From a virus, in IMG/VR virus record IMGVR_UViG_3300045921_000484, positions 1 through 64,000 of that record: 64,000 nucleotides of DNA; one strand, 5' to 3'. Positions 26,267-45,800 of this stretch are shown here, one piece after another. The notes under the pieces are model-generated. The model saw only the letters and a program-made list of their open reading frames with translations, ran no database searches and was not told where the DNA came from. Made by a program: the position numbers and the translations under genes. How positions within the stretch are numbered: position 1 is the stretch's first letter; each line of letters starts with the position of its first letter.

Positions 26267-27892
26267 TCACTCATTGTTTTTTTTATTAATTATGAATTTA
26301 TAATGTCCGCTGTTATATACTCTATTAATCCCAAGCCTTCTCATGCATTCTTGTTCAGTCTCATTTTCTTTTAATAAATTAAGTTTTATTAAATTAGACT
26401 TTCTCCATTTGAATCTATGTTCTCTTTTATTATTAATTATATAATAATAAGTTGGCTTTATCATTGAATGGTATTTAAACCCAATTTTTAAATATAAATT
26501 ACCATTACTGATATCACAATCCGAAAAACTAATAACTGTGTTAAATTTATAATTATTAATAAAATATTTTAATAATTTACTAGCTCCTCCAATAATTATG
26601 TTGTCCTTTTTAACTGCGTATCTAGTTAGTTCATAGTCATCTTTATTTAAAGAGCCAATACCATATCTATTCTTACTGAATGTCATTAATGAAACAAGCT
26701 CATCATTATATAATAATCCTATCTTTATACTTGATTTACAATTTCCCTGTAAATGATTTTCTTGTAAAAATTTTTTAGTAATTTTATTATCATTATATAC
26801 AATTACTTTACATTTTCTTGCAAATATTTTTTTATTTGTCAATCCTAGTTTATTTTTTATGATAGATTTTAATATATCCTTCTTATATAACCAATCATCC
26901 TCCCATATTTGGAATAATTTAATGCCACATTCTTTTGATTTTATATACTTTTTATTATGATAAAATTTATCTTTATAAAGTTCGGAATGCCACCAAACAC
27001 CATTAAATTCAAATCCTATTTTTAAATCAGGTAAATATATATCAATCTCATAAGGATCAATTACATTTCTTACATTTCTTAATATTGTCCCATCATATAT
27101 AGAGTTTATAAAATCGAAAATTTCATCTTCTTTAGAAGATCTGTTATTAATTGGATTGCAAATTGTACATAAATCTACATTATAAACATTAAGTCTTTTA
27201 TATAAAACATCATTATTTATGGTATAGGTGTGATTATTTTTACAATTAATAATATAGTTATTATCATTGTCAATGGATATTAAATCTATATTAAGCCTTT
27301 TTAATTCTAGAATTCTATTATTTAGGAAATTTATATTATTATATTGTCTATAATAGTTATTTTTATTAGATTTAAAATAGTCTGTTTTGAAAAAAACAAC
27401 ATTTCCATATCTATCATTTATTGTTTTTTTAACTTTTTGATAAATTTCTTTATTCTTAGTTGGATTATCAACTCCATATTTTTCTAAGCAAGTTTTTTTA
27501 ACTGATTTTTTAAATGAATCTAACGTGTTTGGATATTTAACTCCGTATTTTATAAGATTTGATTCCTCTCTTTTAAGTAATATTTCTTTACTTTTAGTTG
27601 GATTATCAACACCATATCTTTCTAAACAGGTTTTTTTATTTTTTACTTGAGAACATTTAGATGAACAACAATATAGATCTCCATTTATATAAGATTTATA
27701 ATATTCTCTCCAAATTATTTCTTTTTCCTTGAAACAAATATCACATTTAACATTTATTTTTAAATGTGAACCCGGTATTAAATCCTTGGTATTTATTCTC
27801 AACTTCTTATCTGTTATATTATAACCCTTACTTTTATAGTATTCTATGTTTTTTTTATTAACAGTTATAACAACATATTCATCAATTATCAT
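26267..27892 (-). CDS. free-standing homing endonuclease, zinc-finger / Vsr-like / Mom-like
   Basis: The 541-residue product has four parts: an N-terminal region with a CDIC and CSSKC zinc site (residues 45-82); three YGVDNPTKSKE-type units (90-180), known from phage endonucleases as DNA-binding repeats; a PD-(D/E)XK Vsr-like nuclease with EIDIYLPDLKIGFEFNGVWW followed by IWEDDW (about 275-330); and a C-terminal domain (355-520) with YELTRYA, GGASKLLKYFI and a GF-x-Y-x-x-x-x-KPTYYY motif like Mom/GNAT-type proteins. The enzyme at 45897 has the same plan. It lies between the repeat genes and the hydrolase gene. Confidence 0.88.
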   Translation of the reverse strand: MIIDEYVVITVNKKNIEYYKSKGYNITDKKLRINTKDLIPGSHLKINVKCDICFKEKEIIWREYYKSYINGDLYCCSSKCSQVKNKKTCLERYGVDNPTKSKEILLKREESNLIKYGVKYPNTLDSFKKSVKKTCLEKYGVDNPTKNKEIYQKVKKTINDRYGNVVFFKTDYFKSNKNNYYRQYNNINFLNNRILELKRLNIDLISIDNDNNYIINCKNNHTYTINNDVLYKRLNVYNVDLCTICNPINNRSSKEDEIFDFINSIYDGTILRNVRNVIDPYEIDIYLPDLKIGFEFNGVWWHSELYKDKFYHNKKYIKSKECGIKLFQIWEDDWLYKKDILKSIIKNKLGLTNKKIFARKCKVIVYNDNKITKKFLQENHLQGNCKSSIKIGLLYNDELVSLMTFSKNRYGIGSLNKDDYELTRYAVKKDNIIIGGASKLLKYFINNYKFNTVISFSDCDISNGNLYLKIGFKYHSMIKPTYYYIINNKREHRFKWRKSNLIKLNLLKENETEQECMRRLGINRVYNSGHYKFIINKKNNE

Positions 27893-28585: not shown

Positions 28586-29206
28586 TTAAAGTGGAAGTTC
28601 TTCTTCACCACCTTCTTCAGTTTCTTCCTCTTCTTGAGCTTGAGCTTGACTTTGTCCTTGAGCTTGACTTTGTCCTTGAGCTTGACTTTGTCCTTGAGCT
28701 TGACTTTGTCCTTGAGCTTGACTTTGTCCTTGAGCTTGACTTTGTCCTTGAGCTTGACTTTGTCCTTGAGCTTGTGGTTCTTCGAATTCATCTTGGTCTT
28801 CTTGACCACCTTCAGTTTGAACTTGAACTTGTGATTTAGATTGTCCTTGACTTTGTGTTTCAGTTTCTGTCTGTGTTTGAGCTTTTGTTTCAGTTTGTGT
28901 CTGTGCTTGACCTTGTCCTTGAACTCCACCAATTATTGCATCAGCTGGGATTTTATCAACATCTAAATTGTTAAGATTGATATACTTTATTATTTCTTCA
29001 GCTATATCAACATCTCCAAAGAATTGTCGTAAATTTTTACCAGTATTATCTTTAACCTTTTTAACATAAGCATTTATTAATGATTGAGGAATATCAATCA
29101 TTGTTTTTACTTTGTATATATCGTTCACCTGAAGAACAGATTCTTTAATAATTTCTTCTCTATTTTTTCTGATACGATAGCTTTCAAATGTTCTAATATG
29201 CTTCAT
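28586..29206 (-). CDS. tagged protein with a Gln-rich hexapeptide repeat region
   Basis: The 206-residue product starts MKHIRTFESYRIRKNREE, a good copy of the shared tag. Residues 20-90 look folded (VKTMIDIPQSLINAYVKKVK). From about residue 95 the sequence is low complexity: TQTETQ-type units, an acidic spacer, then about eight AQGQSQ hexapeptides and an acidic end, EEEETEEGGEEELPL. The tail is probably disordered and unusually rich in Gln for this genome. A packaged internal protein is my inference from the tag. Confidence 0.8.
   Translation of the reverse strand: MKHIRTFESYRIRKNREEIIKESVLQVNDIYKVKTMIDIPQSLINAYVKKVKDNTGKNLRQFFGDVDIAEEIIKYINLNNLDVDKIPADAIIGGVQGQGQAQTQTETKAQTQTETETQSQGQSKSQVQVQTEGGQEDQDEFEEPQAQGQSQAQGQSQAQGQSQAQGQSQAQGQSQAQGQSQAQGQSQAQAQEEEETEEGGEEELPL
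28627..28782 (-). repeat. 18-bp tandem repeat encoding AQGQSQ
   Basis: About eight nearly identical copies of GCTTGACTTTGTCCTTGA (plus strand). All three minus-strand frames stay open through the array, producing misleading alternative frames. Copy number is likely to vary. Confidence 0.9.
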
Positions 29207-31209: not shown

Positions 31210-33432
31210 TTATTTCTTTCCAAACCAATTTACTCTACCTCCCTTATATCTATTCATTTGTTGTCTTCTAACTTTTAGTACTTGACTATAATCAACTCCT
31301 TCTACATAGTCTATATTCCTTAGACACTCATTTACATAGTTCATGAACTCTTTATCAACAAACTTATTAGCCCAATCTTCAACCATTTCTTTATATTCGT
31401 ATTTATTGAATACTGTTGTTGAGTTTACTATTGTCATGACACAATCATCATGTCCAACGTCTGCGGCATATTTTATATTGCCAGCTGTTGTAACATGCTT
31501 AACAAATGTCGTTATCTCTCTAATATTATCTTCATTGGTTATTAAGAATCCTTTCCTCATCATTAAATCTTGATAGTCCTTAACCATTAGGTTCTTATTG
31601 TCTCCAACTTTTAGACCAATTTTTTCTTCATTTGAGTCAGACCTGTGTTTATATCTAAAGAATACAGAGGAACCGTAGTTATTGTTGCCATCAAAAACGT
31701 GTGGCATTTCTGCTAATAGTGTATTACCATAGTTATTCAATTCCAAAACTATCTTCACATTATCAGGATTTAAATATTCGAATACAATCATGTAAAGTAG
31801 TTCAGCTAACTGTTTTACAGATATAATGTTACTTCTGTAAATACCTATTTGCTCAAGTCTAAAGAAGTCTGATATTGACTTATAAGATGCTTTTTGAATC
31901 TCTATTAGTTCTTTAGGCTTCTGTGATATTTTAAATATGTTTATAACTGAGTAATCTTGACCCAATCCTTCTGATATATCCACCGATATTATTATCTTAT
32001 AGTCTTTTCTCATTAATGGTATAAACGATTCATCATCTACCCATTTTAAGTCAGAGTAATTAAATTTAAGTTTTCTGTCAAATTCTGGAATTTGTTCAAA
32101 TACATAATTCTTCTTACCCTTCAATAATTCATCTATTATACTCTCACTTAAAAGTGATTTACTTGAGTTTATAAATCTTAAACCATACTCTTGATTAAAC
32201 GCATCTTCACCTCCTATATCTTTAATAGCTTCTTCCTTCCAGGTTGTTATTTCGGATATTGCTCTTATTGATACTTCGTGTCCATTTTTATCTATAAAGG
32301 TCATTGATCTCACATCATCCTCTGAACAAGATTCGTTATTATAGACATATATAACATCTTTTAATTTGTCAACAATATATTTCATCTCTACTTTGGTTAC
32401 ATTTCCCCAAGTATCGTTTACTAACTTGAATATATCTTCTTTTGTTACACCATATTCATGTAGTTTATGATTATTTAATCGTATATATGTTAGGAATCGA
32501 CCAGGTACCTGATACCAATAAACCCTCATAGGCTTATAGTTATTCTTTTGTGGATCACCATCTGGTCTTTCAGCATCTGTTAATAACTTATGAAATAGAT
32601 TCATGCCATTTGGTGTTGATGTTATTATAATTTTTGAGTTGTTAACGGCAGATACGGTCGGGAAGGCTGCAGTATAGTATGGTTCTATGATATTTGATGG
32701 AATGTGAGCGAATTCATCTAAGTAAAGAACGTCAATGGTAAAACCTATAGCTGGCGTCTTTGTTCTTGCGGATGTTTTAATTCTACATCCATTCTCAAAG
32801 GTTAGTGATTTTTGATTCCAAGTTTTAATACCTGGTTTTAAGAAGAATGGTAGTAGAGTATAGATTGATTTAATCTTATCTACAATTTCCACAGCAGTAT
32901 CACCCTTGTTAGCTACAATCATTATATTCTTATCATTATTGAATAGAATAGTATGTAACATGAAGATTGATGATGATATAGTATTGTGTGACAGTATACC
33001 ATTTGTAAAAAATCTATGGTTTGGATGAACAACCGTTAAGTCAAACATTGATGTTTTGTGATTGTCCGAAAATATTTCTTTAATAATACTATTTCCTTTT
33101 TCAGTTTTTATTATATCACCAACTCTTAAATCTTTAGTAAATATTTCATTGAATTCACTATCAAATAATATGTGATTATCGGCACAAGTTAGTTTAAACC
33201 CATCTTCTGTAACTATATTATAATGTTTATATGGTTGAGTTATATGTATATTTGAAACAGGTTCATATCCGGTATCAGTTTTAACCTTTATATTCATTAA
33301 GCATATAGAATTTAATATCTTTTTACTAATATCATCTTCATCTAAAGATATATTCCTATATTCATACTTCTCTATTAATTCAATTGTATATTTAATAGTA
33401 ATTATTAAATATTTTTTAAAAAATTTAAACAT
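31210..33432 (-). CDS. 17: large terminase (gp17-like), C-terminal half fused to a C-intein
   Basis: The 740-residue product begins with 150 residues of C-intein, ending at the splice motif FFTNGILSHN, followed by Thr as first extein residue. The 590-residue extein then carries the rest of the packaging motor: ATPase Walker B LYLDEFAHIP, coupling motif ITSTPNG, and the nuclease acids in IIISVDISEGLGQDYS, KIVLELNNYG and AADVGHDDCV. The extein opens with T-ISSSIFML, completing a Walker A broken after Gly-Lys. Joined to the other half this gives a terminase of about 707 residues (T4 gp17: 610). It starts inside the end of the intervening endonuclease gene (8-base overlap). Confidence 0.93.
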   Translation of the reverse strand: MFKFFKKYLIITIKYTIELIEKYEYRNISLDEDDISKKILNSICLMNIKVKTDTGYEPVSNIHITQPYKHYNIVTEDGFKLTCADNHILFDSEFNEIFTKDLRVGDIIKTEKGNSIIKEIFSDNHKTSMFDLTVVHPNHRFFTNGILSHNTISSSIFMLHTILFNNDKNIMIVANKGDTAVEIVDKIKSIYTLLPFFLKPGIKTWNQKSLTFENGCRIKTSARTKTPAIGFTIDVLYLDEFAHIPSNIIEPYYTAAFPTVSAVNNSKIIITSTPNGMNLFHKLLTDAERPDGDPQKNNYKPMRVYWYQVPGRFLTYIRLNNHKLHEYGVTKEDIFKLVNDTWGNVTKVEMKYIVDKLKDVIYVYNNESCSEDDVRSMTFIDKNGHEVSIRAISEITTWKEEAIKDIGGEDAFNQEYGLRFINSSKSLLSESIIDELLKGKKNYVFEQIPEFDRKLKFNYSDLKWVDDESFIPLMRKDYKIIISVDISEGLGQDYSVINIFKISQKPKELIEIQKASYKSISDFFRLEQIGIYRSNIISVKQLAELLYMIVFEYLNPDNVKIVLELNNYGNTLLAEMPHVFDGNNNYGSSVFFRYKHRSDSNEEKIGLKVGDNKNLMVKDYQDLMMRKGFLITNEDNIREITTFVKHVTTAGNIKYAADVGHDDCVMTIVNSTTVFNKYEYKEMVEDWANKFVDKEFMNYVNECLRNIDYVEGVDYSQVLKVRRQQMNRYKGGRVNWFGKK
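32983..33432 (-). other. C-terminal half of an atypical split intein (IntC, about 150 residues)
   Basis: After a 45-residue helical extension, NIKVKTDTGYEPVSN and LTCADNHILF correspond to the early Hint strands and block B (T-x-x-x-x-H here), TKDLRVGDIIKTEKG to the following conserved part, FDLTVVHPNHRFFTNGI to block F and LSHN to block G. In ordinary split inteins block B is on the N-half; here it is on the C-half, as in the AceL-TerL intein, whose IntC aligns closely. Confidence 0.88.
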
Positions 33433-34396
33433 TTTTTAATTGTTTTGTTTTTAATATAAAGTTTACCATTTTTAAGACAACCAACTCCTTATTATTTCTA
33501 TATTCCTTCTCACTTATATGTATTACTTTATAACCAGATTGTAATATATTTTGGTCTCTTTTTCTCTCTCTTTCTCTATTCTCTGGATTATCTCTATGAT
33601 AATATGTCCCATCAAATTCTAAAATTAATTTCAAATCAGGTATAAAAAAATCAGGAAGTATATATGAATTATTTAACTTTAACCTAAACTCATAATTTCT
33701 ATTTGTATCATGTATTTGGTTATTATCATCTAACCTAGCAAAATAAACTTTATTATCAAAACCTAATTTAACCAACTCATTATATATTGATATAAACATC
33801 TCTTGACTTATAACACTATAATTAACTTTTTTATAATTACTAAGCCATTTCTCTTGTCTATCTAACCATCTACTATAACCAATTTCTTTACCAAGTCTAT
33901 CAATACACTTATCTAACGTAAATGTTCTTTGTCTCTCTTTCAATAGATTTTTAGATTCTTCAACTGAATATCCCTTATTGATATAATATTCCAATGTAGT
34001 AGGGTGTAATCTCTCTTTAATAGCTTCTTTAGCGAATTCACTTATATACTCTTCAACATTATATATATCCTTATACTTTATAAATTCTTTTGAAAATGGA
34101 CTTCTTGATTTCCTCTCTAACTCAGTTGTTTTAGATTTATGATTAGGATTTTTTTCACCCTTTACTTTCTCAGAAAACATTTTTTTATATTTTTCTTGTT
34201 TCATATGTTTTCCAGAGTTTTTAGTAGTATTTTTAATATCAGATAGAGCCATTATAGGAGCACCGGGAAATAATTTCTTATAATCCTCAGTGGTCATATT
34301 ATTATGATTATATTTTAAGTGTTTACCATATATTCTCTTACATTGTTCGCCACATATTCTACATGTAACAGTTTCTATATTATCATCTATTTTCAT
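33425..34396 (-). CDS. homing endonuclease inside the split terminase, Vsr-like
   Basis: The 323-residue product has an N-terminal zinc-binding segment (CRICGEQC, then H-x-x-x-H in GKHLKYNHNN) of the type found in MucR/ROS-like phage nucleases, a basic middle part and a C-terminal PD-(D/E)XK domain with LPDFFIPDLKLILEFDGTYY, conserved His, and a final GYKVIHISEKEY strand. The Vsr-like fold is the same as in endonucleases reported between the halves of other fractured phage genes. It is read as a separate gene, overlapping the IntC gene by 8 bases. Confidence 0.85.
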   Translation of the reverse strand: MKIDDNIETVTCRICGEQCKRIYGKHLKYNHNNMTTEDYKKLFPGAPIMALSDIKNTTKNSGKHMKQEKYKKMFSEKVKGEKNPNHKSKTTELERKSRSPFSKEFIKYKDIYNVEEYISEFAKEAIKERLHPTTLEYYINKGYSVEESKNLLKERQRTFTLDKCIDRLGKEIGYSRWLDRQEKWLSNYKKVNYSVISQEMFISIYNELVKLGFDNKVYFARLDDNNQIHDTNRNYEFRLKLNNSYILPDFFIPDLKLILEFDGTYYHRDNPENRERERKRDQNILQSGYKVIHISEKEYRNNKELVVLKMVNFILKTKQLKNV

Positions 34397-34430
34397 AAAA
34401 AATTAATTTTTTATTTATGTATTAAAAAAA

Positions 34431-34970
34431 TCATGGCTTCCTATCAAGTTGGTAAGCGTTTTCTAACCTATATAGATAATCATATAATTTAATCTTTAAC
34501 TTTTCTAAAAAATTTAACTTTCTTTCTTTAGAAATCATTAAATAATAAAGCTTTCCAAATCTAATATCATATTTTATCCCATCTCGCTCTATTGAAATTA
34601 TAGTATTAAAAGAAAAACATTTACCAACCTGCCTACTAGCCATTAGAATATTAAATCTATTATTTATGAAGTTATCTAATATCTCTTTTTGATAATCTCT
34701 TAATTTTATATTATTAATAGTCCCATCTTCTGTCTTTACTTTACAGTATTTTTCCGTGAAGTAGTGAACATCGAGAGCACATTTAATATATTCTTGTTGT
34801 TCTTCTTCTGTCATCTTAAATGACACACCAGATCTTCTTAGGCCAATTTCACTTTTCAGCCATGGATTTTGATATCTCTTTAAGACGATACCATCATTTA
34901 TTTTATCTGTTGCTTCATCAACTAATCTTGTTGTGAACACCATTTGTCTCTCTTGTTGTTTAACTGACAT
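34431..34970 (-). CDS. 17: large terminase (gp17-like), N-terminal half fused to an N-intein
   Basis: Residues 1-117 are the terminase N-terminus: adenine-motif region and LRDYQKEILDNFINNRFNIL leading to MASRQVGK, the first part of the Walker A (T4 gp17 SRQLGKT). From Cys 118 (CFSFNTIISIERDGIKYDI) starts the N-intein, 62 residues to the stop. Only block A is present. Protein splicing in trans with the product of 31210-33432 would rebuild SRQVGKT and an active ATPase; without it neither half could work. Divergent from the small terminase gene. Confidence 0.93.
   Translation of the reverse strand: MSVKQQERQMVFTTRLVDEATDKINDGIVLKRYQNPWLKSEIGLRRSGVSFKMTEEEQQEYIKCALDVHYFTEKYCKVKTEDGTINNIKLRDYQKEILDNFINNRFNILMASRQVGKCFSFNTIISIERDGIKYDIRFGKLYYLMISKERKLNFLEKLKIKLYDYLYRLENAYQLDRKP
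34434..34619 (-). other. N-terminal half of the atypical split intein (IntN, 62 residues)
   Basis: Begins with the nucleophile Cys of block A, CFSFNTIISI. The first 25 or so residues align with the 25-residue IntN of AceL-TerL; the rest (from about MISKERKLNFLEKLKIKLYD) is an extra, Lys-rich helical extension that could help the two halves associate. Confidence 0.85.
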
Positions 34971-35018: not shown

Positions 35019-35651
35019 ATGTCGAAAACAGAAAATGAAAGAAATAGATTACAAGATGAGTTTGACCAAATTCAGTCAGAAAGTGGTGAATTTGATATAT
35101 CTAAACACTTAGCTAAACCAGAAGATCTACCGGATTTAGGTGAAATAAAGATATATGACTATGACTCCGATATGACTGTTGCTAGTCAACAGTCAATGGA
35201 GGTGCTTGAATCTTTAGTTGATTTATATTTGAGTGACGTTCCTCAATTAAAGCAACATCCATATATTAGGAATAAAATGAAGGAAGATGCTATGGTTTAT
35301 GCTGAATCCATTTTTTTATCCAAAATGACTAGAAAAAATTTCTTATCGCAACTAAGACAAATTGATAATGGAGATAATTCAGCTAGGATGCATGAAGTTG
35401 TCAATCAAACTATTGCTCAAATAAGAGAGAATGCTAAGTTTTCTTCCACACAAAGAACAGAATTGGAAAAGTTCTATAAGAATCTAAGAAAAGATTTAGG
35501 TCTTAATGATATCGAAAGTCCTGAAGTGAGGAAGGCAACACAAGAAGCATCTTCTGATTCACAAGAGGACGAAGGTATTGGTTCTATAATAGATAATCGT
35601 AAACTAAATGATATGATTAAAGCTGCAATGAATAAGGATAAGAAGGATTAA
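35019..35651 (+). CDS. 16: small terminase subunit, T4 gp16-like
   Basis: The 210-residue product should recognise phage DNA and regulate the large subunit during packaging. Its pattern follows gp16: acidic N-terminus, then KPEDLPDLGEIKIYDYDSDM (gp16 ISDLPGIDGEEIKVYEP), a long helical middle with AMVYAESIFLSKMTRKNFL (gp16 DAAKIFLETAKN) and HEVVNQTIAQIRENA, ending in a charged tail. It is adjacent to the large terminase gene but on the opposite strand. Assignment rests on this weak but ordered similarity plus context. Confidence 0.75.
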   Translation: MSKTENERNRLQDEFDQIQSESGEFDISKHLAKPEDLPDLGEIKIYDYDSDMTVASQQSMEVLESLVDLYLSDVPQLKQHPYIRNKMKEDAMVYAESIFLSKMTRKNFLSQLRQIDNGDNSARMHEVVNQTIAQIRENAKFSSTQRTELEKFYKNLRKDLGLNDIESPEVRKATQEASSDSQEDEGIGSIIDNRKLNDMIKAAMNKDKKD

Positions 35652-36496
35652 CCTTTCCAGTTAAAATTTTCAAATGCTTTTATCAGGTTACTCCATTCTA
35701 TGTTAATTTTTGAGGTTTTAAATCTATTTATTTTATTAGGACTTACTAAGTTAACATATAGTATGTTATCGTTATTTTTTAGAGTTTCTTTCACTTTTAA
35801 CTTTATAGATGATTCTGAATTTGATATCAATACTTGTAATATAGAGTTTGAGTTTATTGCAAGATTAGTTGATGATGGATCATCATCATAATAATATATC
35901 TCATCATATTTTAATATTTCATTATTTGTAAACTTGTTACCATCTGTTTTTAATCCTATTAGATGTTGTAGTAGTAGTCTAACTTTATCATGTGATATTT
36001 TATCTTCATTTCTATTATAGAATGTCTCTGATATAAAATAATAATTTTTTACAACAAGACCTTCACTCTTGAATTTATCTTCCATTTTTTTAATCATTAA
36101 CTCATAATTCTTTTTATTATTTTTAGAGCAAATGATGTATATGTGATCATCCGTATTTTTAACGTGTTGTATGTTATCTGTGTTTATTTTGTACTCTATA
36201 TTTTCAATCAATTCTTTATTCATGAATTCTTGCATAGAGAATCCTAAGTTAGATATATCAGATTTGTAATTTTTACATTTAATCTTCAATACATCCATCA
36301 TTTCTTTTGGTAGATAATATGATTTACCACTAAATTCTATTTTTGAATTTTGACTTTTGTATATTCCACTCTTTATCAGATTGAAGTCTGATTGTGACAC
36401 TTTCATGATTGGAATGTTAGGTCTTTTTTTATCAACTATCCAAACCTTATTATCAATAATCAATATTGTGTCTATATCAAAGAAATGGGCTTTCAT
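35648..36496 (-). CDS. HAD-like protein of unknown function
   Basis: The 282-residue product starts MKAHFFDIDTILIIDNKVWI, similar to a phage family whose opening resembles a degenerate HAD motif I (DxDxx). LKYDEIYYYDDDPSS near residue 205 could be the acidic motif IV. The C-terminal part (VNLVSPNKINRFKTSKI) is not recognised. Catalysis is uncertain because motif II/III are unclear. Overlaps the small terminase end by 4 bases (convergent). Confidence 0.65.
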   Translation of the reverse strand: MKAHFFDIDTILIIDNKVWIVDKKRPNIPIMKVSQSDFNLIKSGIYKSQNSKIEFSGKSYYLPKEMMDVLKIKCKNYKSDISNLGFSMQEFMNKELIENIEYKINTDNIQHVKNTDDHIYIICSKNNKKNYELMIKKMEDKFKSEGLVVKNYYFISETFYNRNEDKISHDKVRLLLQHLIGLKTDGNKFTNNEILKYDEIYYYDDDPSSTNLAINSNSILQVLISNSESSIKLKVKETLKNNDNILYVNLVSPNKINRFKTSKINIEWSNLIKAFENFNWKG

Positions 36497-36732
36497 TAGA
36501 AATACTTATTAATTTTATATATTATTTGATTTGGTTGATCATTGAATCTACCACCTTCATAATCTTTATCTTTCCAAGTGACCCCACCACTTAATTCATT
36601 ACAAAAGCTTTCGCATTTATTGCACTCTTTTGGTTCCATTTTAATACCATCTATTATAATCATATCATTCTCTGTATAAATGAATGTTGCTTTACACCAT
36701 GGATTTCTACAAACTGATCTTAATTCTTCCAT
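36496..36732 (-). CDS. small zinc-ribbon protein
   Basis: From ATG 36732 the 78-residue product starts MEELRSVCRNPWCKATFIYT. Two Cys pairs (C-x4-C at residues 8-13 and C-x2-C-x3-C at 36-43) fit a zinc ribbon. No family known to me. It overlaps the HAD-like gene start by one base, so the two are co-transcribed. The 40-residue C-terminal half is polar and unremarkable. Confidence 0.65.
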   Translation of the reverse strand: MEELRSVCRNPWCKATFIYTENDMIIIDGIKMEPKECNKCESFCNELSGGVTWKDKDYEGGRFNDQPNQIIYKINKYF

Positions 36733-36751
36733 AATGTATATATATAAAAGA

Positions 36752-36777
36752 AAACCCGTCATTTTTTTTGACGGGTT
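36752..36777. terminator. intrinsic terminator
   Basis: AAACCCGTCA and TGACGGGTTT form a 10-bp stem around a T-rich loop, just after the stop of the gene at 36783-37238. Confidence 0.85.
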
Positions 36778-36782
36778 TATCT

Positions 36783-37238
36783 TTACTTTATCATATTTTT
36801 ACTTAATGCGAAATCATATAATATTGGTAAATTTAAATGTTTCACGAAGTTATCTCTTATATCTTTTAATTTTTTTGACCTTTTTACTATATTAACTATT
36901 AAAAATCCAAATTCTTCTTGAAAATCTAAGTAATAGTCACACCAAGGTTTATTATAATGATCTAGAGTTCTCCATTCTGAATAACCACCAGTTAGCCAAA
37001 ACAGTGATTTCTCCGGTGTTATTTCTTCATATACTATATCTTTTAATTCGACTTCCCACACAGGACTGTCCCATTCTACTTTTCTCATTAGTATCGTTAC
37101 TGCCTCTGCTACATCTGTCGTTAATTCTTTTCCAATTTCAAAATAGTATTCATTTCCTTCTTTATTAATTCTAATGATGTTATCGTCATATACACCATTT
37201 GCTCTTCTTGTCTCTAGAGCAACTCTTCTTTTTTTCAT
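36783..37238 (-). CDS. unknown 151-residue protein
   Basis: Begins MKKRRVALETRRANGVYDDN, with a basic N-terminus, then a strand-rich part and W-rich middle (SLFWLTGGYSEWRTLDHYNK). No family recognised and no membrane or signal segment. It is followed by a strong terminator and preceded at 8 bases by a small gene in the same direction. Confidence 0.65.
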   Translation of the reverse strand: MKKRRVALETRRANGVYDDNIIRINKEGNEYYFEIGKELTTDVAEAVTILMRKVEWDSPVWEVELKDIVYEEITPEKSLFWLTGGYSEWRTLDHYNKPWCDYYLDFQEEFGFLIVNIVKRSKKLKDIRDNFVKHLNLPILYDFALSKNMIK

Positions 37239-37246
37239 AGTGATTT

Positions 37247-37549
37247 TTAATTTTTTATATCTTTAACAAGATTAATGCCGCTATGCCATTTACCGCTAAA
37301 ATTGCCGTTTTCAAATATCCCATTTTCCCAATTGCCATAAAATTCTCCATTTTTAAAAATACCGTAATGCCAATCACCCGAATAGAATGATCCATTATGC
37401 CATATTAATGTGTTTTTCTTGATTTCTAATTTAGCTCCTTCTATCTCAGAATCTATTAGCCAGAATAGACCATTTTCTTGAAGTATTTTGTTTATTTGAT
37501 GTTCACTTTTGTATGTTTTACCATCAACTAACAATTCTAAATATCTCAT
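37247..37549 (-). CDS. small protein with MORN-like Gly-Trp repeats
   Basis: The 100-residue product starts MRYLELLVDGKTYKSEHQIN. Its C-terminal half repeats a 7-9 residue unit of type G-x-W/F-x-x-G-x-F/W (WHNGSFYSGDWHYGIFKNGE, then FYGNWENGIFENGNFSGKWH), which resembles MORN or toxin-like beta-hairpin repeats. Such repeats usually stack as a beta-ribbon and bind protein or lipid. Role in the phage unknown. Confidence 0.65.
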   Translation of the reverse strand: MRYLELLVDGKTYKSEHQINKILQENGLFWLIDSEIEGAKLEIKKNTLIWHNGSFYSGDWHYGIFKNGEFYGNWENGIFENGNFSGKWHSGINLVKDIKN

Positions 37550-41873: not shown

Positions 41874-44800
41874 ATGGCAATTCAAATTGGAAAATACAAA
41901 AGACCTGGTATCTTTATCGAAGAATTTGACCAATCCGTGATAAGTTCACCAAGATTTGAAGGTATCAATAACCTTGTTATTGGTGTTTCTAAGAAGGGTC
42001 CGGTTAATACACCTATTTTATTGAAAAATATAAATGATTTGGAAGCGGTATTTGGTCAATTGGATAGAAATATGGAGAGAAAGGGTTCATATTTTCATAG
42101 AACTATTGCGAAAATGTTGGAATCTAGTCCAGTATACGCCCTCAATCTATTATTGACTGATGATAATTTAGATACTATTGAATACCAGTCACTTTCAGCC
42201 GCATCAAATTATACGAATGATGTTGAGAGAGAAGGTCCTTATAGAAGATTTTTTGATACTACTGGTTTTTGGAAAAGAGATACAGAGTCTTTTATTAATT
42301 TAACAAAGAATAATACAGGATATGCCGAAAGAATTATTAATTTCACTAACTTATCTGATAAGTATATTACTGTATTTATTGTTAAATCTAAACTAACAGG
42401 ATTTGATAGAACTCTTATCGAGTGGTATGGTTCTGTTGAGAAGATGCCACCTTATGTTAATAGTAATGATTATGCTTCTGACTACATGGTGGATGTTGTG
42501 GTTGTTGGTGGTGATTGGTCAAATTATCAAGAATTAGCCGTGGATAATAGATGGAGCGCATACTTTAATAGCTCAGGTCTTAGAAAAGAACAATTAAGAA
42601 ATTTCGCTAATGATAGAAATGTTACTTTACTTGCATACTACGAAGGGTTGTCATTAATTCCATATTTTAGAGATAGTAATGGTAGAAATATTTTTATTGA
42701 AACAGTTATAAATAGAGATACTGATAGAACAGGTCTATTCTGTGCATTTAATTCAGAATTGCTTGAAACTGATTACCCTAATGGTCTTGTTGATCTTTTA
42801 GGTAATGGTATTGCTCAATCAGAAGAAATGGATATTAATTTCCTTTCATATAAAGAGACTATAACTGAATCAGTTGTTTTACCAAATGTTATTCTTGATA
42901 GACCAGGAAATGTTATATCTTTTGGTGGTACTGCATATGGTAACCCATCAAGAAGTCAATTACATGGTAGAAACGTAGGTCTTTCAAATATTCCATCGGT
43001 TGATGGTACTGTTAAGAACGGTAACAGAACAGGTTGGTATGCTGAAGATTTTGTATTTAATACAAAATTGTCGGCTATTTCTTCAACAACCGCTTCAATA
43101 GTTGTTTCTTACGGTGAAGTATCACCTGGTGATGGTATGTATGCTGTTGTAGGTGGTAAATCCTTAGTTATTGAGGGTGCTACATTTTCAATACAAGCTT
43201 CAAGTTATCCGCCATCTGGTGTAACCGCTTCTTTTACAGTTGCTTTTGTTGTAGATGGTACTGGTAATTTTGTGATGGTTGATAATATATTGACATCAAG
43301 TAATCCAGTTGTTAATTCAAGTGATATTGTATTAGGATATGTAACATTTAATATAACAAACAATGTAATTGATACTGGTAGTGTAACATATAATCCAGTT
43401 TCAATTGATTCGTCCGGATTTGTTGACTTAGTTTTAGGTGTTGATTACCAAGTTACTGAGTCTACTCCAGGTTCAATAACTATTGAGTTACTTAACACAG
43501 CTAATTCACCTAATTCTTCAAATTACGAGCAATTTAGAAAGATTAAATATTTCAATAAACTATTAGATGGTGTTGATGGATCTTCTAAAAATAGAATGAG
43601 TATGATTATTAATTACTCCTCAATGACTAAGAAGTCATTGGAGAATATGTCAGTTACAAATATAGTAACTGCTTCTACTCAAAATAAATCTCTTACAATC
43701 AATACAGGATTGACAAGTGCTGAGATAGCTGATATTGTTAATGAAGGTTACTTACTATTCTACTTAAATGATGATGAGTTTATAGTTGGTCCTTATAAAG
43801 TTGAGACTAAAGATGGTATTGCTATTCTTACTGGTACTTCTTCAACATCTGATGGTGGTGTAGTATCTAAGTATTCAGATTTATATATTAAGTATATAAA
43901 TGGTATTATTAATAGTGGTGACTATTTCTGGTCAAATTTAGTTAATTCTGATCCAGAATCATCAGCTTATGGTGTTCCTGAGGCTATCACATTTATTGAT
44001 GGTGAAGATGTTCCATCTGGTACAGCTTCAGCTTCTGGATATGATTATATTATATTCTATTCTTCCGGAACATTCTCTGGTTCAGCTTTAGCTAACTTGA
44101 GTGTTAATGATGTAATTTCAGTTCCATCCTCTTCACTGAATAAAGGAACATTCACAATACTCACTGGTGGTGGAGCTGCGGCTGCTACATTAGCTGCTCA
44201 GTTAGGATATATCGGTTCTGGATATTATGCTTATAAAGTTAATGAAGAGACTGTATCAGAAACCTTATTTGAGTCTAATGGTCAAACAGGTGTTGTTTAT
44301 AATTATTTAAAGAAACATTATTTAAGAATGTATATAGATGGATTAAATAGATTATCTGTATCATTTATGGATCCATTGTTGCAGTCTTATGAACCTGTTG
44401 ATGTTGATACAAACCAAGTTTTATTTATACAGTCTAATATTAGTAACTATAAACAATCTGTTGAGATTGAGACTAATGTTAATGGATATATACAGCAACC
44501 AAATAAAATACTTGTTAATGGATCTAGATATACTGAGGTTAAAGTAGGTGATTTCTTAGAAGCTTATGTTGATACAACAACATTGGTTCCTGGTGAAGTA
44601 CCAAGAAGACTTACTAGAATTTTAAGTAAGAGAGCTTATGCTGGTGACCCAACGTTAACTGAGATTACTTGTGACTCAAGAATTGCGACATATAATTTTA
44701 ATGGTGATTATCAAACATTCAGATATACAACTATCGAAGATTATGTATCTACTTATAAAGCTATTACACTTAAAGGGTTTAGAGTAAGACAAGATTCTTT

Positions 44801-45800
44801 ACCTGATGGCACTGAAGTTAAACAAAATCAAATTTTAAACCTTGTTGCGAAAGGAACACCTTTATTTAAGGCTTTAATTAACAAGGAATCATTTGACTTC
44901 AGATATTTAGTTGATTCGTTTGGTTTAGGCTTAACTGAAAGATCTAAGCAACAGTTAGTTGATATTTGTGGTAATAGGTTAGATGTATTTGGTTTCATAA
45001 ATATGCCGTCTTTAAGACAGTTTAAGAATTCTACATCTCCATCATTTGTTAACTCTGAGGGTGTTTTACAGATAGAATATGTTTCTAAGGGTGGTGATCC
45101 TGAGTCTAATCCAGCTTTCCTTTATTCATTCGGTGATGGTCCTGGTACAACTTGTACAGGTTACTTCACACCTTATGTGACAGTAAACGATAACGGTAGA
45201 CCAATAGATGTTCCACCAGCTATGTTTGTAGCAACAACTTATATGAGAAAGCATACATCTAATGTATCGGCTATAACTCCTTGGACAATTGCTGCTGGTG
45301 TTACAAATGGTAAAGTAACGAATATTGCTGGTCTTGAAATGGACTTCACTCTTGAAGATATCGAGTGGTTAAATCAAGCTCAAATGAATCCAATTGTTTT
45401 CAAGAGAAATAGAGGTTGGATCATTGAGACTGAAAATACAGCTCAAACTCTTTACAAGTCAGCTCTTTCTTACATACACGTTAGAGAGGTATTAATTGAA
45501 CTTGAGAGAGAACTTTCAAGAATGTTATTAGACTTCCAGTGGAAGTTCAATACACCTGAGGTTAGAGCAGAGATTAAGTTGAGAGCAGACGTTATTTGTG
45601 AAACTTATGTAAGTAGAAATGGTTTATATAACTACTTCAACAAAATTGATGAGGAGAATAATACTCCTGAGATAATCGATAACCAAATTGGTGTTCTTGA
45701 TACCTATGTAGAACCAATTAAGGGTATGGGAATAATTGTAAATAATATAACTATACTAAGAACGGGAGCAATAAGTGCAGGTGGTTTTATAAATGGATAA
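41874..45800 (+). CDS. 18: contractile tail sheath protein, T4 gp18-like, with a large insertion
   Basis: The 1308-residue product starts KYKRPGIFIEEFDQSVISSP, the standard gp18 entry with the N-terminal arm that links to the next subunit. The conserved C-terminal core runs from about GFRVRQDSLPDGTE (980) through PWTIAAGVTNGKVTNIAG, LNQAQMNPIVFKRNRGWIIE and YIHVREVLIELERELSRMLL to INGF-like arm residues. T4 gp18 has 659 residues, so about 600 extra residues lie between, rich in Ser, Thr, Val and Gly and probably beta-domains exposed on the tail surface. Own promoter-like element and terminator. Confidence 0.93.
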   Translation: MAIQIGKYKRPGIFIEEFDQSVISSPRFEGINNLVIGVSKKGPVNTPILLKNINDLEAVFGQLDRNMERKGSYFHRTIAKMLESSPVYALNLLLTDDNLDTIEYQSLSAASNYTNDVEREGPYRRFFDTTGFWKRDTESFINLTKNNTGYAERIINFTNLSDKYITVFIVKSKLTGFDRTLIEWYGSVEKMPPYVNSNDYASDYMVDVVVVGGDWSNYQELAVDNRWSAYFNSSGLRKEQLRNFANDRNVTLLAYYEGLSLIPYFRDSNGRNIFIETVINRDTDRTGLFCAFNSELLETDYPNGLVDLLGNGIAQSEEMDINFLSYKETITESVVLPNVILDRPGNVISFGGTAYGNPSRSQLHGRNVGLSNIPSVDGTVKNGNRTGWYAEDFVFNTKLSAISSTTASIVVSYGEVSPGDGMYAVVGGKSLVIEGATFSIQASSYPPSGVTASFTVAFVVDGTGNFVMVDNILTSSNPVVNSSDIVLGYVTFNITNNVIDTGSVTYNPVSIDSSGFVDLVLGVDYQVTESTPGSITIELLNTANSPNSSNYEQFRKIKYFNKLLDGVDGSSKNRMSMIINYSSMTKKSLENMSVTNIVTASTQNKSLTINTGLTSAEIADIVNEGYLLFYLNDDEFIVGPYKVETKDGIAILTGTSSTSDGGVVSKYSDLYIKYINGIINSGDYFWSNLVNSDPESSAYGVPEAITFIDGEDVPSGTASASGYDYIIFYSSGTFSGSALANLSVNDVISVPSSSLNKGTFTILTGGGAAAATLAAQLGYIGSGYYAYKVNEETVSETLFESNGQTGVVYNYLKKHYLRMYIDGLNRLSVSFMDPLLQSYEPVDVDTNQVLFIQSNISNYKQSVEIETNVNGYIQQPNKILVNGSRYTEVKVGDFLEAYVDTTTLVPGEVPRRLTRILSKRAYAGDPTLTEITCDSRIATYNFNGDYQTFRYTTIEDYVSTYKAITLKGFRVRQDSLPDGTEVKQNQILNLVAKGTPLFKALINKESFDFRYLVDSFGLGLTERSKQQLVDICGNRLDVFGFINMPSLRQFKNSTSPSFVNSEGVLQIEYVSKGGDPESNPAFLYSFGDGPGTTCTGYFTPYVTVNDNGRPIDVPPAMFVATTYMRKHTSNVSAITPWTIAAGVTNGKVTNIAGLEMDFTLEDIEWLNQAQMNPIVFKRNRGWIIETENTAQTLYKSALSYIHVREVLIELERELSRMLLDFQWKFNTPEVRAEIKLRADVICETYVSRNGLYNYFNKIDEENNTPEIIDNQIGVLDTYVEPIKGMGIIVNNITILRTGAISAGGFING

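Follow-up and report, generated by a model that had tools for sequence, protein, structure and literature searches.

How can a phage package its DNA when the gene for its packaging ATPase is cut in two within the nucleotide-binding loop? This question is raised by a stretch of 64,000 nucleotides (nt) (positions 1 to 64,000 of the IMG/VR virus record IMGVR_UViG_3300045921_000484, a 195-kb genome fragment; hereafter the window), where a T4 gp17-type large terminase gene (TerL; 31210-34970, minus strand) is interrupted within the Walker A motif (GK/T, the slash marking here and below the point of interruption). The comparisons below make it highly likely that this is a fractured terminase gene of a huge T4-like phage, whose product would be rebuilt by protein trans-splicing of a split intein, with a homing endonuclease gene between the halves that relatives have lost or replaced.

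Anatomy of the interrupted terminase locus

The locus consists of three open reading frames (ORFs) in the order TerN+IntN (117+62 amino acids, aa), endonuclease (323 aa) and IntC+TerC (150+590 aa), TerN and TerC being the two parts of the terminase and IntN and IntC those of the intein. The upstream ORF (34431-34970, minus strand, 179 aa) reads ...NILMASRQVGK at the end of TerN and continues into IntN as CFSFNTIISIERDG..., while in the downstream ORF (31210-33432, minus strand, 740 aa) IntC closes with GILSHN (...HRFFTNGILSHN before the Thr) and TerC begins with TISSS. An earlier, sequence-only reading of this DNA had placed the break between Gly-Lys and Thr of Walker A, and both its coordinates and its ORFs were as claimed, with TerN ending in SRQVGK and TerC starting at Thr+1. 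Joined in silico, the two exteins give a product of 707 aa, the length which that reading had predicted, and the junction, reading SRQVGKTISSSIFMLHTILF, is identical residue by residue to that of intein-free relatives (708-712 aa).

The terminase matched Pfam Terminase_6N above cut-off (E value 1.6e-14) and the solved T4 gp17 structures with an E value of 6e-29, indicating homology over the ATPase and nuclease domains; the closest named TerL sequences come from records of 642 and 634 kb and are 76-78% identical over TerC. The three ORFs are tightly packed, with 34 nt between the IntN stop codon and the endonuclease start and an 8-nt overlap of the endonuclease stop codon with the IntC start, and the leaders upstream of the ORFs are A/T-rich with no obvious Shine-Dalgarno sequence. 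No second intact terminase that might serve as a backup was detected at E <= 0.001 in the 195-kb record, which is a genome fragment, nor were further inteins or copies of the window endonuclease found across it. The arrangement is neither a product of chance nor an assembly fault, being found again in dozens of independent contigs.

An atypically split intein

Alignments of 22 IntN and 24 IntC sequences bore out the proposal that the upstream gene ends in an N-intein with block A only and the downstream gene starts with a C-intein carrying blocks B, F and G. Cys1, His87 of block B, the terminal His-Asn and Thr+1 are all present in the window; among the aligned sequences, Cys1 of IntN and, in IntC, His87 of block B, the Asp and His of block F and the terminal His-Asn before Thr+1 are kept with few exceptions. 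IntC scored above the cut-off of the NCBIfam model intein_Cterm, and a profile of its family matched, among solved structures, VidaL (E value 6.5e-14), the engineered, atypically split consensus intein Cat and gp41-1. An AlphaFold model of IntC, with a mean predicted local distance difference test score (pLDDT) of 75.8, again found VidaL (5.9e-6) and Cat (3.5e-5) as its best fold matches, and all 17 Protein Data Bank (PDB) matches at E <= 0.001 were inteins; the template-modelling (TM) scores against solved inteins were only about 0.4, a level to be expected of an IntC model that lacks the IntN strands. The identification as an intein is thereby corroborated, IntC being closest in both sequence and fold to the atypically split VidaL and Cat.

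The split falls directly after block A, as in the atypically split class of AceL-TerL and GOS-TerL, which have a short IntN and a long IntC. AceL-TerL measures 25/104 aa with Cys1/Cys+1 and GOS-TerL 37/115 aa with Ser1/Cys+1 (table in PMC11766414). Since its fragments measure 62/150 aa, with Cys1 and Thr+1, we assign the window intein by sequence to this class as another allele, so that the AceL-TerL type suggested earlier stands for the atypical split position and falls for the allele family.

Helical tails on both fragments

Extra helical extensions of about 37 aa on IntN and 45 aa on IntC had been noticed from the sequence; AlphaFold predicts helices in both (Table 1), in tails that we size at about 38 and 46 aa. 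The tail helices have local pLDDT values of about 77-87, and tails on both fragments were found in most relatives. They probably form a docking surface for the fragments. Simple charge complementarity between the tails was rejected, since the IntN tails are positive and the first IntC helix is also positive in most relatives (the window IntN row being misframed in this comparison), and the tails taken by themselves co-diverged only weakly (r 0.19, likewise calculated with the window IntN row misframed). No contiguous ancestor with the same helical tails was found among the approximately 80 loci fetched with the IntC profile; L180, which tblastn coordinates had suggested to be a fused allele, actually consists of two ORFs 11 nt apart.

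The endonuclease between the halves

As had been read from the ORFs, an endonuclease gene is sited between the terminase halves. Its product combines an N-terminal Ros/MucR-like zinc finger, a long middle region and a C-terminal Vsr/DUF559/EDxHD-like nuclease, a layout drawn from a DUF559 match above cut-off (E value 1.1e-6), a Vsr match below cut-off (E value 0.001) and, for the family profile against structures, matches to the Ros zinc finger 2jsp, to 3r3p (E value 0.069) and to Vsr (E values 0.16-0.2), the three spanning E values of 0.05-0.2. The structure 3r3p, an entry titled as a mobile intron protein, is the EDxHD enzyme I-Bth0305I. The earlier description of this endonuclease as Vsr-like agrees with the DUF559, Vsr and 3r3p matches, which are weak and concordant. 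Among relatives the N-terminal part of the endonuclease is retained, and the nuclease end is of two different kinds.

Allele states among related phages

We compared about 180 related phage loci; the contigs are metagenomic and some of them near-duplicates, so that the counts given here are not frequencies. Among the first 80, a split intein was present in 25 and at least 54 read uninterrupted through GK/T; a search with TerN added 57 contiguous and 13 split alleles, on partly overlapping contigs. Intein-free alleles, split alleles with the endonuclease, with a different endonuclease or with none, and alleles with dispersed halves thus co-exist. The sequence-only reading had held that halves joined directly in the phage population would speak against it: direct joining does occur, as intein-free alleles, all of them in other phages, and a re-fused allele, with a fused intein and these tails, was never found in the loci read.

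Some split alleles have a same-strand endonuclease between the halves, like the window, whereas in L008, L015 and L016 a homing endonuclease from a different family, encoded on the opposite strand, takes that place (PHROG 3339 in L016, E value 2e-106). A homing endonuclease of that same family (541 aa; PHROG 3339, E value 1e-112) is encoded elsewhere in the window, at 26267-27892 on the minus strand. In L017, L148, L160, L171 and L180 there is no endonuclease and the ORFs are separated by at most 77 nt. Other loci hold endonuclease remnants or scars. L016 and L017 belong to phages that are 97-99% identical and differ by a 1.77-kb endonuclease region, of which L018 keeps a 111-bp remnant; L158, L159 and L191 have truncated endonuclease copies; and the last 20 residues of the endonucleases align with the IntN end of L154 and L156 (score 69, none of 300 shuffles exceeding 48), which marks that end as a deletion scar of the endonuclease.

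Finally, the halves may be dispersed. In L097 (2636-6603) they lie 2846 bp apart with opposite-strand genes between them, and in L186 (1-7411) no TerN was found within 4 kb upstream of IntC; the intervening genes of these two loci resemble those at 35648-37549 of the window. In LR756501 (735,411 bp; loci L106 and L109) TerN-IntN (624410-623865) and IntC-TerC (611493-609226) are separated by about 12.4 kb that holds unrelated genes on both strands (all but 1.4 kb of the interval was read), and IntC ends in NLN/T, the penultimate His being lost. A protein with long GQSQA repeats is encoded at 28586-29206 of the window (minus strand), and LR756501 encodes a similar one some 4 kb upstream of its IntC (L106, 550-1068). 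In LR756500 (L105, 4941-7731) IntC ends in SSQ/T, with Gln for Asn and the His absent, and a 270-aa terminase-like ORF follows; its broken P-loop (SRQMGIS) rules it out as a backup terminase.

Mobility, exchange and selection

On the TerL tree the labels split and empty interleave, with seven changes, at least five of them forced by well-supported branches; the split L001, for instance, is sister to the empty L042 with support of 100/97. At synonymous third positions the cassette was more similar than TerL in L006/L012 (0.74 against 0.38), L009/L014 (0.90 against 0.63) and L001/L004 (0.81 against 0.65; permutation p 0.0005 in each pair). Because its synonymous identity exceeds that of TerL, the cassette is, on this measure, younger than the terminase gene that hosts it. 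Occupied and empty alleles therefore occur at one site and the element has been transferred horizontally, as is characteristic of a homing element; a co-conversion tract near L001 left at most a faint signal.

Distances between IntN sequences correlate with those between IntC sequences beyond what terminase distance explains (partial r 0.54, p 0.0005), and with IntC accounted for IntN shows no correlation with the terminase (r -0.01). A clear example of mobility comes from the window itself. Between the window and L200, DNA identity is 68% in TerN, 94% in IntN, 96% in the endonuclease, 70% in IntC and 65% in TerC, and the most likely exchanged block (34664-33417; 95% identity within it and 64% beyond, delta log-likelihood 255) has its breakpoints at Walker A and at the start of IntC. 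IntN and the endonuclease have thus moved together, recently, and the alleles involved either differed in IntC beforehand or retained their own. The two IntC paired with the shared IntN type are about 62% identical in protein, so that one IntN type would have to work with both.

Ratios of nonsynonymous to synonymous substitution rates (dN/dS), where estimable and non-zero, were about 0.02-0.33 (IntN), 0.09-0.27 (endonuclease) and 0.08-0.39 (IntC); these are rough values, distant pairs being near synonymous saturation, and lying well below 1 they indicate purifying selection on all three.

Table 1. Features of the interrupted terminase locus (window coordinates)
Feature	Position	Strand	Basis
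TerN, N-terminal extein, 117 aa, ending in SRQVGK (Walker A through Lys)	34620..34970	-	gap-free alignment to intein-free TerL
IntN, 62 aa: Cys1 and block A (about 24 aa), helical tail (about 38 aa)	34434..34619	-	alignment; AlphaFold helices at residues 138-149 and 154-176 of the TerN-IntN ORF
Homing-endonuclease-like gene, free-standing, 323 aa	33425..34396	-	Ros/MucR-like zinc finger N-terminal; Vsr/DUF559/EDxHD-like nuclease C-terminal
IntC N-terminal extension, 46 aa, with long helix at residues 2-24	33295..33432	-	AlphaFold, alignment
IntC HINT core: blocks B (CADNH), F (MFDLTVVHPNHRF) and G (GILSHN)	32983..33294	-	profile, alignment, AlphaFold fold match
TerC, C-terminal extein, 590 aa from Thr+1: Walker A remainder, Walker B LYLDEF, nuclease domain	31210..32982	-	
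Exchanged IntN+endonuclease module, 95% identical to L200/L132 within otherwise 64% identical DNA	33417..34664	-	

Weighing of the explanations and proposed mechanism

Some observations tell against a functional split intein served by a homing endonuclease. Block B is present in IntC, as had been claimed, though not in the TxxH form, since it reads C-A-D-N-H (AxxH), with Ala at the usual Thr position; in a few relatives IntC has lost the penultimate His or has Gln in place of Asn; and the matches that place the nuclease in a family, though concordant, are weak (E values 1e-6 to 0.2). Such altered terminal residues would suit a terminase whose halves act as separate, unspliced subunits, the intein parts being remnants, much as phage nrdA, split by a mobile endonuclease, functions as two peptides according to a passage of PMC10448857. 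However, the cut parts the P-loop Lys from its Thr. Purifying selection acts on both intein fragments, which have retained their catalytic residues, and IntN has diverged in step with IntC irrespective of TerL; given an interrupted P-loop and preserved intein residues, unspliced function is distinctly unlikely. Repair at the RNA level, by a group I or II intron, a trans-spliced intron or ribosomal bypass, would make the intein-like ORFs irrelevant, and it has a precedent in Jug phages, whose split terL is spliced as RNA (PMC12363816). Here the frames of the intein parts are open and conserved, with ends that coincide precisely with the borders of the exteins, and, since no group I/II intron or other structured RNA was matched in Rfam at gathering thresholds and the halves lie 2.8-12.4 kb apart in some relatives with opposite-strand genes between them, we consider this very improbable.

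A working split intein might also have been retained for more than selfish reasons, with splicing gating the timing of packaging. That several lineages remain split after losing the endonuclease, with both intein fragments still constrained, would agree with such a regulatory domestication; persistence is nevertheless expected in any case, because precise re-fusion is hard, and many close relatives are intein-free, which leaves this role unlikely. As for an assembly artefact or a dead gene, the record is metagenomic, yet dozens of contigs from different metagenomes have the same arrangement, with open frames and dN/dS below 1, so that either is hardly conceivable.

For the fractured, trans-spliced terminase that we favour, the comparisons of sequences establish the anatomy, purifying selection, empty alleles, horizontal transfer, loss or replacement of the endonuclease and dispersal, and from these we infer the trans-splicing chemistry, the docking of the helices and the cleavage of DNA at the empty site. 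TerN-IntN and IntC-TerC would be made as two polypeptides and then associate, the IntN strands completing the HINT fold of IntC with the aid of the helical tails. Class 1 splicing by Cys1, the block B and F residues, the terminal Asn and Thr+1 would join Lys117 to Thr+1, restoring the P-loop GKT in a TerL of 707 aa. The homing endonuclease may carry itself and one intein half, or both, into alleles of the terminase that do not have it; later it is deleted or replaced while the intein remains split, and the half-genes may become unlinked. That the phage needs trans-splicing to package its DNA, as had been asserted, is suggested by this being the sole terminase found in the 195-kb fragment record.

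A broader proposal seems to us possible, if somewhat short of probable: that a selfish endonuclease drives the stable fission of an essential gene, IntN and endonuclease forming a mobile module of their own that enters alleles with diverged IntC, for which the conserved tails probably serve as a shared docking handle, and that once the endonuclease has gone the gene remains split and its halves disperse, as in the 735-kb phage, so that trans-splicing becomes permanent in virion assembly.

Other inteins and neighbouring genes

L056-L059 and L068 have a further intein, contiguous and about 350 aa long, at DD/C in the nuclease domain of the terminase (for example at about 6990-8090 of L058); it appears LAGLIDADG-like by eye, and the same phages also have the split intein. 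In Salicola phage SCTP-2 (MF360958, 256428-257321; L104 and L112) a terminase ORF begins with IntC and ends with a second N-intein (SLLY/CLDGETTV...), which suggests a terminase made of three pieces; within 48 kb no other piece was found. Vibrio phage VP-1 (MH363700, 74807-78149; L103) has a contiguous intein at GK/T and a second one, in two ORFs, at EYD/C, with the N part fused to an apparent GIY-YIG nuclease. An atypical split intein also interrupts a DnaB-like helicase at Walker A (NVGK/C ... HN/S) in L192 (3167-5080), a contig assigned to a metagenome-assembled genome of Clostridia; its IntN has about 31 aa and no endonuclease lies between the parts. Elsewhere in the window, the gene at 41874-45800 (plus strand) encodes a protein of 1308 aa, whose last 370 residues match tail sheath (PHROG 34521, E value 6e-94) and follow an N-terminal addition of about 930 residues.

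Comparison with known systems

To our knowledge, few examples bear so far on the origin and persistence of split inteins and on their carriage by external endonucleases. With a natural series of alleles at a single site, both the homing cycle and gene fission become open to direct tests, and the tails, together with natural swapping of IntN between diverged IntC, may yield trans-splicing pairs with a built-in docking element; if our explanation is true, some of the largest phages known rely on protein trans-splicing to package their DNA. No published report of this terminase split in huge phages was found in the open-access literature searched, and the main text of the huge-phage paper PMC7162821 does not mention inteins. 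Fractured genes with split inteins and such endonucleases are already known, as are atypically split terminase inteins; apparently new are the tails, a graded series of alleles at a single site, the exchange of IntN with the endonuclease and dispersal over kilobases.

Like the window intein, AceL-TerL and GOS-TerL reside in phage terL and combine an IntN having block A only with a long IntC having blocks B, F and G. They differ in fragment lengths and in the +1 residue, as given above, and in lacking the helical tails on both fragments and the linked endonuclease of the window; because it has Thr+1 instead of Cys+1, the window intein probably also occupies a different insertion site. VidaL (PDB 6vgv), the top match of IntC in sequence and fold, is 25% identical to it in the fold alignment, and the first 46 residues of IntC are unmatched in the sequence alignment. 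The terminase inteins of cultured Ackermannviridae (for example Klebsiella phage HMGUkp5 and Vibrio phage VP-1) are inserted at the same GK/T point and have a homologous IntC (38-44% identity), but they are contiguous inteins of 159-179 aa within one ORF, with a loop at the split position and no long tails by eye. I-Bth0305I (3r3p) and Vsr align weakly to the C-terminal nuclease region of the window endonuclease, which has in addition the zinc finger and the long middle, and relatives with different nuclease ends. Dassa et al. reportedly described in 2009 (NAR 37:2560) fractured genes in which an endonuclease lies between the parts of a split intein. Their arrangement is likewise an intein fragment on each gene half with a free-standing endonuclease between, whereas the site in the window presents a whole series of alleles: empty, endonuclease-bearing, exchanged, decayed and dispersed.

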